A stretch of DNA of 46,238 bases. Origin: Candidatus Magasanikbacteria bacterium CG1_02_41_34. Its GTDB lineage: Bacteria > Patescibacteriota > Patescibacteriia > Magasanikbacterales > UBA922. Where the stretch lies: contig MNVD01000031.1 in the NCBI GenBank assembly GCA_001871445.1, positions 1 to 46,238 of the forward strand, given 5' to 3'. A program made the position numbers and the translations under genes. Position 1 is the stretch's first letter. Each line of letters begins with the position of its first letter. Below are positions 19,708-22,296 of this stretch, in pieces. A model generated the notes under the pieces. It was not told the origin of the DNA and made no database searches. It saw only the letters and a list, made by a program, of their open reading frames with translations.

Positions 19708-19803
19708 TTGATTAATTAACGCATAAGTTAGCCACCGACTAAACCTACTCACTAGTTTTTAAAAAACTGTGGACAAATAGGTTTAAAATTCAGTCAATTT
19801 TCA

Positions 19804-19820
19804 GTATAATACAATTATAC
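19804..19820. promoter_or_regulatory. Candidate operator overlapping the -10 box of the lexA-methyltransferase gene
   Basis: GTATAAT-ACA-ATTATAC perfect palindrome containing TATAAT (19805-19810), about 32 nt upstream of the ATG at 19852. Confidence 0.6.
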
Positions 19821-19851: not shown

Positions 19852-21417
19852 ATGCTAAATTTGACCAAAAAACAAAAACAAATTTTTGATTACATTGCAT
19901 CATTTATTGATAAAAAAGGATTTTCTCCAACTCTCGAGGAATTGAGGAAGCACCTAAGGTTGAAAGCTTTATCTGGTGTATATCAGCATGTCAATGCTTT
20001 GATAGAAAAAGGTTATATCACTCGAGATGAAAATGCAACTCGTGGTCTTGGAATTAGGAAGCAAGGAAAGATAGATACAATTGAAATACCTTTGGTTGGT
20101 ACAATTACCGCTGGTCAACCAATAGAAGCAATAGAGACAAGAGGAAATACAATTACAATTGCCCGTGATACTTATTTTGATCCAGAACAACTGTATGCTT
20201 TGAAAGTTGTTGGCGACAGTATGATTGAAGATGGTATTTTTGATGGTGACATGGTCGTTATAAAAAAACAAGAAACTGCTGATAACGGTCAGACAGTCGT
20301 AGCTGTTATAGATGAAAATGAAGCTACTCTGAAAAAACTTTATCGCGAAAAAAATAAATTTAGACTGCAACCTGCAAATCAAAATTTGCTTCCGATTTTT
20401 AGGACCGAAGTAGAAATTCGTGGTATTGTAATAAAAATTATTAGAGATTTTAATAATCAATTGCAAAAAACAAAATTGTTTAAGACTATTGATCTTTTTG
20501 CTGGTGTAGGTGGAATAAGGCTTGGTTTCGAAAAAACTGGTTTTGAAACTGTGTTTGCAAATGATTTTGAATCACAATGTAAAGATACCTATGATCTTAA
20601 TTTTGATGGAACAAAACTTTTTGTAGAGGATATCCAAAAAATAAATGAAAAAAAATTGCCAGATTTCGATTTCTTACTGGGTGGTTTCCCTTGTCAGGCA
20701 TTTTCAATTGCTGGATATAGACAGGGATTTCATGATGAAAAGGGACGTGGAAATTTATTTTATGATGTTGCAAGAATCCTCAAAGAAAAACAACCAATGG
20801 GGTTCATGCTTGAAAATGTAAAAAATTTAAAAGGTCATGACAAAGGAAAAACATTTAAAATTATTATTGATACGCTTGAAGATTTGGGTTATCATGTAAA
20901 ATCAAAAGTTTTGAACAGTATGGAATATGGTAATGTTCCTCAAAATAGAGAAAGAATTTATATTGTTGGTTTTAGGGACAAAAGACATTACGAAAAATTT
21001 AGTTTTCCAAGCACTGTAAGACTTACAAAGAAGATTACGGACTTACTCGAAGAAACTGTTGATGAAAAGTATTATTACAATGGAAAACCACTTTATAAAC
21101 ATTTAAAAGACGATGTTACAAATAGAGAAACTGTGTATCAATGGAGAAGAAAGTATGTACGTGAAAATAAAAAAGGAGTGTGCCCAACGCTTACTGCCAA
21201 CATGGGTATGGGGGGACACAATGTTCCAATTATTAAAGACAAAAAAGGAATAAGAAAACTGACCCCTCTTGAGTGTGCTAGGATTCAGGGTTTTCCAATG
21301 AATTACAAACTTCCAAAAAATATTTCAGACTCTGCATTGTATAAGCAATTTGGTAATTCCGTAACTGTACCTGTTGTGCAAGCTGTAGCAAGACAAATTA
21401 AGAAGGCGATAGAGTAA
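19852..21417 (+). CDS. LexA repressor fused to DNA (cytosine-C5) methyltransferase
   Basis: LexA: LTKKQKQIFDYIASFIDKKGFSPTLEELRKHL, PLVGTITAGQPIEAIE (Ala-Gly), VVGDSMIEDGIFDGD (Ser), EATLKKL (Lys). MTase: IDLFAGVGGIRLGFE (I), GGFPCQAFSIAG (IV), MLENVKNL (VI), NVPQNRERIYIVGF (VIII), RKLTPLECARIQGFP (IX), LYKQFGNSVTVPVV (X). TTG at 19837 is an alternative start. Confidence 0.93.
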   Translation: MLNLTKKQKQIFDYIASFIDKKGFSPTLEELRKHLRLKALSGVYQHVNALIEKGYITRDENATRGLGIRKQGKIDTIEIPLVGTITAGQPIEAIETRGNTITIARDTYFDPEQLYALKVVGDSMIEDGIFDGDMVVIKKQETADNGQTVVAVIDENEATLKKLYREKNKFRLQPANQNLLPIFRTEVEIRGIVIKIIRDFNNQLQKTKLFKTIDLFAGVGGIRLGFEKTGFETVFANDFESQCKDTYDLNFDGTKLFVEDIQKINEKKLPDFDFLLGGFPCQAFSIAGYRQGFHDEKGRGNLFYDVARILKEKQPMGFMLENVKNLKGHDKGKTFKIIIDTLEDLGYHVKSKVLNSMEYGNVPQNRERIYIVGFRDKRHYEKFSFPSTVRLTKKITDLLEETVDEKYYYNGKPLYKHLKDDVTNRETVYQWRRKYVRENKKGVCPTLTANMGMGGHNVPIIKDKKGIRKLTPLECARIQGFPMNYKLPKNISDSALYKQFGNSVTVPVVQAVARQIKKAIE

Positions 21418-21420
21418 ATA

Positions 21421-22296
21421 CTATTCAACAAAGTTTACCTCTAAATTTTTTAGTTTATCTATTTCATTTTTAAGATAATCTGGACCTATATCTTGTTCAC
21501 GAAGATTAATATGTGTGGGGATAAATGATGTTGTTATTTTTAAAGACATGCCATTTTCTATCCATGTTTTTGGTCGTAATCTCAGTTCTAATCTTTTTTT
21601 TGCTTTATAAATTTTTGTACCACCGTATGCATCGTCAATAAAATTTTTCAAAAATACAGATTTAGTAGTTGTTCTTTTTTTGTCTACTTCAACTTCTTCA
21701 AGATTTTTTAGATTTATGACTGCTCCTGTAAAATAAAAGTCTGCACCTTCTATTTGAGTTCCTGGACGAAGGATAAAAAAGTAATATATTGTTTCAATAG
21801 GATAATTCTTTTTTAGAGATTCGTATTTTTCATTGAATAATTTAACCCATTGATTTTTGATATCTGTGTATTTCTTTTTTTTGAACATCTCATCTAAATT
21901 TATACCGGGTCCTTCAAATTTTTGTCCAAGAGATGCTTCACCACTATCACCATTTGTTACACTTCCAGATGAATCGAGTTTTATATTTAGCATCTTAATA
22001 TCGGCCCCCCATTTTTCTCGTTCATTGTAAATATCAATTGGATATGAACCCGCTCCAACTGGCTTAACATCGAGAGATTGGGTGAACCATTGTTCAATAT
22101 GTTCTTTTGGTATTTGAATAGGTAGCGTTTTCTGTTCTTTTTTTGGTTCGGGCTGTGAAAATAAAGATTTTATGAGAAAATACTTAATAATTTTTTTTGA
22201 TTTTTCATCAAGAAAACTTTGTAGTTCATCGGGGCTTAGTGGGTTGATTACAAATTTTGTTTTTTGTTTACTTTTATTGTTAATTGATTTTTTCAT
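21421..22296 (-). CDS. Candidate restriction endonuclease, PD-(D/E)xK-like
   Basis: Convergent with the MTase; GAGSYPIDIYNEREKWGADIKMLNIK fits PxD-X10-DxK; low-GC; ATG at 22296 (track start 22335 is a TTG). Confidence 0.6.
   Translation of the reverse strand: MKKSINNKSKQKTKFVINPLSPDELQSFLDEKSKKIIKYFLIKSLFSQPEPKKEQKTLPIQIPKEHIEQWFTQSLDVKPVGAGSYPIDIYNEREKWGADIKMLNIKLDSSGSVTNGDSGEASLGQKFEGPGINLDEMFKKKKYTDIKNQWVKLFNEKYESLKKNYPIETIYYFFILRPGTQIEGADFYFTGAVINLKNLEEVEVDKKRTTTKSVFLKNFIDDAYGGTKIYKAKKRLELRLRPKTWIENGMSLKITTSFIPTHINLREQDIGPDYLKNEIDKLKNLEVNFVE

Follow-up and report, generated by a model that had tools for sequence, protein, structure and literature searches.

The window, a 46,238-nucleotide stretch of Candidatus Magasanikbacteria bacterium CG1_02_41_34 (contig MNVD01000031.1), contains a gene that encodes a LexA repressor and a cytosine-C5 DNA methyltransferase (MTase) as one protein. 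It is met tail to tail by a convergent gene whose stop codon lies 3 bp from that of the fusion. The features of the locus, in order of position, are:

19768–19776, plus strand: DnaA-box-like 9-mer TGTGGACAA, which differs from TGTGGATAA at one position and lies upstream of the predicted operator by 21 bp
19782–19810, plus strand: promoter read from the sequence (−35 TTTAAA at 19782–19787, −10 TATAAT at 19805–19810), spanned by the predicted operator
19789–19805, plus strand: predicted operator TTCAGT-N5-TTCAGT, a direct repeat with an 11-bp period, from family statistics and co-variation
19804–19820, no strand assigned: perfect inverted repeat GTATAATACAATTATAC over the −10 (arms GTATAAT and ATTATAC about ACA), from the sequence
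19852–21417, plus strand: LexA–C5 MTase fusion gene, 521 aa from an ATG start, single open reading frame
19852–20046, plus strand: LexA winged helix-turn-helix (HTH), residues 1–65 (PF01726 LexA_DNA_bind, 1.3e-15)
20089–20433, plus strand: S24/LexA autoprotease and dimerisation domain, residues 80–194 (PF00717 Peptidase_S24, 1.5e-29)
20110–20115, plus strand: predicted self-cleavage site Ala87-Gly88
20218–20220, plus strand: catalytic Ser123
20332–20334, plus strand: catalytic Lys161
20449–20478, plus strand: linker between LexA and MTase
20479–21405, plus strand: cytosine-C5 DNA methyltransferase domain, residues 210–518 (PF00145 DNA_methylase, 8.7e-98; TIGR00675)
20689–20697, plus strand: PCQ motif of the MTase
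21421–22296, minus strand: convergent gene, 291 aa from ATG, probable restriction endonuclease with a PD...GADxK-like motif

Searches against NCBIfam scored residues 1–200 as a full-length LexA (TIGR00498 lexA, 188.8 bits; cut-off 110.95) and the enzyme part as TIGR00675 dcm (354.7 bits; cut-off 100.65), and the reading frame contained no stop codon between the two domains. The head comprised the complete winged HTH, with Gln at recognition-helix residue 45, and an S24 domain with the Ala-Gly site and the Ser/Lys dyad, in place of the short 434-repressor-like HTH of the M.SsoII/M.EcoRII type. C5 MTase motifs I, IV (PCQ), VI (ENV), VIII and X were present in the enzyme part, and DLFAG-GG, FPCQ, ENV, QNRERIY and GNSV were invariant in a 32-member alignment (A3). 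LexA for the head and M.HhaI for the enzyme were the closest relatives in the PDB. In the AlphaFold2 model, two parts were folded with confidence, and in the linker between them residues 202–207 had pLDDT values below 50.

Distribution of the LexA heads and their convergent neighbors

Sixty-eight further LexA–MTase fusions were found, nearly all of them in Patescibacteria. Thirty-six were full-length or near-full-length LexA–C5 fusions from a scan of species-representative genomes, with hosts among the Magasanik-, Parcu-, Pacei-, Staskawicz-, Nomura-, Shapiro- and Saccharibacteria, several metagenome-assembled genomes (MAGs) and one Propionibacteriaceae MAG. Searches of the whole genomes of relatives also placed LexA heads on N6/N4 MTases (PF01555), D12-class MTases (PF02086) and Eco57I/N6_Mtase-type enzymes (PF07669/PF02384); about 15 of the 32 fusions found outside the scan were classed directly by Pfam and the rest by catalytic motif. 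At least 20 of 380 Patescibacterial genomes in an even sample carried a LexA–MTase fusion. This recurrence ruled out a chance or frameshift joining of the two domains. An assembly error was excluded because the 36 C5 fusions, which stem from independent assemblies and include that of the complete chromosome of the Saccharibacterium TM7i (L029), share this frame. A phage-borne origin was not supported, with no phage record at 80% coverage; of the viral contigs, 50 had a LexA-like match, and a long fused frame was present in only one of these (L206).

An earlier note on this DNA had described an intact LexA and a complete C5 MTase in one frame with retained cleavage chemistry, had proposed a database search for this architecture, and had named a stop or frameshift between the domains as a refutation. 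The domain models, the uninterrupted frame and the 36 further C5 fusions bear this description out, and the cleavage residues were kept throughout the family (see below). Its treatment of the protein as a single oddity did not hold, since the fusions form a recurrent class.

In a tree of the LexA heads, the MTase classes clustered (10 changes versus 38.5 in shuffles) and the host lineages were intermixed; therefore heads and enzymes mostly travel together. The C5 fusion of the Propionibacteriaceae MAG (L035) lies in a locus of 55% G+C, and its head groups with those of Saccharibacteria. Either the parasite passed the gene on to the actinobacterial group of its hosts, or the locus was binned wrongly.

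In the genetic context analysis, a convergent gene stopped within tens of bases of the fusion at 62 of the 69 fused loci, often with overlapping stop codons. These 62 neighbors fell into 23 sequence clusters, which included about ten families of recognised Type II restriction enzymes. Pfam assigned nucleases of the NgoFVII, Bsp6I, PDDEXK_5, TaqI, MvaI/BcnI, MamI, BglII, EcoRV, HindIII and ScaI families and an endonuclease-VII type. Among the non-fused C5 relatives, by contrast, 35 had a clear neighbor, and the layout was tail to tail in only 7 of these, the others being collinear (Fisher p about 6e-14, calculated with 27 collinear non-fused loci; a recount of the list gave 28). By a simple criterion, no terminator was visible between the convergent genes at the 62 loci.

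The partner gene in the window belongs to a six-member family found solely in this convergent position, with an invariant PID...GxDxK pattern that resembles a PD-(D/E)XK site. Nothing significant was returned for the protein from Pfam, NCBIfam, PADLOC, PDB sequences or an AlphaFold2 model searched with Foldseek. Because no database recognises it, the name nuclease follows from its position, and the gene is a probable restriction endonuclease. Recognised Type II enzymes in the same place at sister loci lend support to the earlier proposal of a cognate nuclease next door. The fusion and its partner have G+C contents of 33% and 29%, markedly lower than the 42–43% of the flanking genes, as expected of an acquired restriction-modification (R-M) cassette. 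A GCNGC target is suggested through guilt by family, from the NgoFVII and Bsp6I nucleases of sister loci; in a weak test of avoidance, GCNGC had an observed/expected ratio of 0.91, which made it only just the lowest among 16 patterns of its kind.

Promoter elements of the fused genes

In 55 of 68 fused promoters (shuffle mean 0.96, maximum 4), the −35 and −10 elements were spanned by a direct repeat of the form TTCNN-N6-TTCNN. Identical 7-mers 11 bp apart were present in 32 of the 68, and 0–4 promoters had them at every other period tried. The half-site changed together with recognition-helix residue 45: Glu or Gln was paired with TTCGG at 32 loci, and Phe, His or Tyr with TTCTA or TTCGA at 22. 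The two thus agreed at 54 of 55 loci, the sole exception being the window itself (TTCAG with Gln). On a tree made without the HTH, all five informative independent pairs agreed and none disagreed; five pairs alone are too few for significance, but close relatives show the contrast directly, as L148 does with L145 and L146. Because the repeat sequence co-varies with residue 45, the LexA head very likely represses its own promoter. This co-variation is the best sequence-level evidence that the head binds there, and a predicted operator at its own promoter is a further feature that the fusion has in common with LexA. The palindrome GTATAATACAATTATAC was also considered as a palindromic LexA box; a related repeat, TATAAT-N1-4-ATTATA, occurred in 12 of 68 fused promoters (0.15 in shuffles), and the direct repeat was preferred as the operator because the palindrome was limited to these 12.

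TTCGG direct repeats also precede several separate lexA genes of Patescibacteria, and direct-repeat LexA sites in this phylum have probably been reported already (Sanchez-Osuna 2017, via PMC7739468). In the window genome (96.8% complete), no protein but the fusion has a LexA HTH, as would be expected if it served as the general SOS repressor of the host and carried an MTase incidentally. That role is nevertheless improbable, given that at least eight of the fusion-bearing genomes in the even sample encode a separate LexA as well, that operator variants such as TTCTA differ from the operators of the separate lexA genes inspected, and that the exact operator pattern occurs only twice in the 1.04-Mb window genome. 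One copy is at the fusion's own promoter and the other at G000:C28:26600, a locus whose open reading frames include a metG-like gene. The window genome also encodes RecA and, at G000:C28:33412–33765 (L003), a UmuD-like S24 protein without an HTH (NF007621, 163 bits).

An operator at the fusion's own promoter and co-variation with the DNA-binding helix require no cleavage, and MTase–repressor fusions are a known strategy (PMC12707154). The head could accordingly be a plain autorepressor that acts like the HTH of M.SsoII or M.EcoRII, with the S24 domain serving for dimerisation only and cleavage being vestigial. We regard this as unlikely, because a mere dimerisation domain should lose the cleavage residues in some lines, whereas the cleavage site (Ala-Gly in 67 heads and Gly-Gly in one), Ser and Lys were retained in 68 of 68 fused heads, across four MTase classes and despite differing operators and hosts. 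This conservation argues that self-cleavage of the fused heads is used. The cleavable autorepressor proposed in the earlier note thus gains support from the retained cleavage residues, the predicted operator and its co-variation with the helix.

The 9-mer TGTGGATAA, whose reverse complement is the DnaA box TTATCCACA, was present without mismatch in 40 of 68 fused promoters (0.7 in shuffles). By comparison, it occurred in the promoters of 1 of 15 separate lexA genes and of 0 of 31 non-fused C5 genes. Where both elements occur, it starts 18–29 bp, mostly 21–24 bp, before the operator. In one genome it clusters around dnaA, with 13 copies within 3.5 kb. Of 19 genomes checked, 18 had DnaA; none was found in the assembly that contains the window, in which the box has its one mismatch. 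As a lead and not a proof, the element points to replication-coupled control of the fused MTase genes. Neither the operator nor the 9-mer was seen at any of 62 restriction-gene promoters, and therefore only modification appears to be under this control.

Proposed control by self-restriction and relation to known systems

The reading that we consider likely is that of an autorepressed, damage-cleavable MTase of a Type II R-M system, induced when RecA filaments form. Bound to the direct repeat across the promoter, the LexA head would hold MTase synthesis at a low steady level. Should the partner restriction enzyme cut undermethylated host sites, RecA filaments would form on single-stranded DNA, whereupon, we infer, the S24 domain would cut itself at Ala87-Gly88. 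The DNA-binding part would then leave the operator, and the derepressed gene would supply a burst of MTase that restores protection. The fusion thereby probably allows protection to be stepped up in a cell whose restriction enzyme has begun to cut the chromosome. Self-restriction is the most natural trigger because in E. coli the SOS response is set off both by an imbalance of R-M activity and by post-segregational killing (PMC3874152), and RecA filaments arising at cut undermethylated sites are a simpler trigger than the newly repaired unmethylated DNA envisaged earlier. On entry into a naive host, the MTase would be made first, since the repressor is absent there. Induced transcription of the MTase gene may also run into the tail-to-tail restriction gene and damp the nuclease through an antisense effect; other R-M systems are known to be regulated by convergent and antisense transcription (PMC12707154).

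After cleavage, the C-terminal parts may stay dimeric. LexA cleavage fragments are protease substrates in E. coli and are degraded there, so the freed MTase might be short-lived. Damage could in that case switch modification off, with methylation falling as the MTase fragment is proteolysed and the nuclease killing the damaged or infected cell; R-M systems are able to act as killing modules (PMC3874152). We find this outcome hard to credit, however, in that the same cleavage would derepress the MTase gene and oppose the loss of modification, and the nuclease gene carries no operator.

Beyond induction of the MTase by self-restriction, the fusions may constitute a new class of R-M control, in which an MTase-borne SOS sensor reads the RecA filaments of self-restriction and restores methylation, receives a replication input through the DnaA box, and serves as an interchangeable part for many unrelated Type II systems of one phylum. 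This broader claim stands, in our judgement, evenly poised.

M.SsoII, M.Ecl18kI and M.EcoRII likewise combine a C5 MTase with an N-terminal DNA-binding domain that regulates transcription of their own R-M system, and they act as autorepressors (PMC3978073, PMC12707154). Their domain is an approximately 70-residue phage-434-type HTH without a protease domain or damage sensor and is found on C5 enzymes only, whereas the present family has a full LexA head, extends to N6/N4, D12 and Eco57I-type enzymes, and has 11-bp direct-repeat operators. The window fusion is thus a functional counterpart of these MTase–repressors and not a member of their group. With LexA itself (TIGR00498 and the separate Patescibacterial LexA), the fusions share the full-length score, the Ala-Gly, Ser and Lys residues and TTCGG direct repeats, but they are joined to an enzyme, have one main target (their own gene), and show the additional DnaA-box 9-mer and variant operators. 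M.HhaI-like C5 MTases have the same catalytic motifs, M.HhaI being the nearest solved relative, and the Bsp6I and NgoFVII systems (GCNGC/GCSGC) have nucleases of the types seen in sister loci; the fusions differ from both in the LexA head and in a nuclease gene that is convergent and not collinear. C-protein R-M systems and the antisense-controlled Eco29kI and EcoRI solve the same problem of making MTase before nuclease. In contrast to these, the fusions have no C protein, and the regulator is the MTase itself, which could respond to DNA damage.

Autoregulated MTase–repressors are already known; what appears to be new here is an autoregulated R-M system with an SOS-type head. No description of a fused LexA–methyltransferase was found in the literature searched, a search outside which the study by Sanchez-Osuna et al. 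(2017) of the Patescibacterial damage network fell, and a review of R-M biology from 2025 is silent on LexA. If the proposed control is true, autoimmune damage would feed back directly on the protection that a restriction system gives; the reviews searched describe no such link. The head resembles a plug-in control module, placed before four MTase classes and paired with about ten nuclease families. Its hosts are tiny uncultured bacteria, difficult to cultivate and poorly understood in their gene control. Because the operator co-varies with the head, a few constructs in E. coli would suffice to test the idea.

Related arrangements were observed at several other C5 loci. In L049 and L053, RadC (UPF0758_N and RadC JAB domain by Pfam) is N-terminal to the same type of C5 MTase, with a collinear NgoFVII-type nuclease gene, and constitutes a second DNA-repair-related head for the same enzyme; L058 and L066 are similar to these two in lengths and layout. 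A separate complete LexA gene is divergent from the adjoining C5 R-M genes in L056 (200–832). In L044 (1613–2275), a separate complete LexA is followed in a row by a Vsr-like gene and an MTase, and the nuclease gene is convergent. These two loci are possibly the unfused form of this control. Vsr-like genes of one family adjoin several C5 systems, upstream of the fusion, in L004, L015, L019, L044, L065, L078 and others, and that of L019 was confirmed as PF03852.
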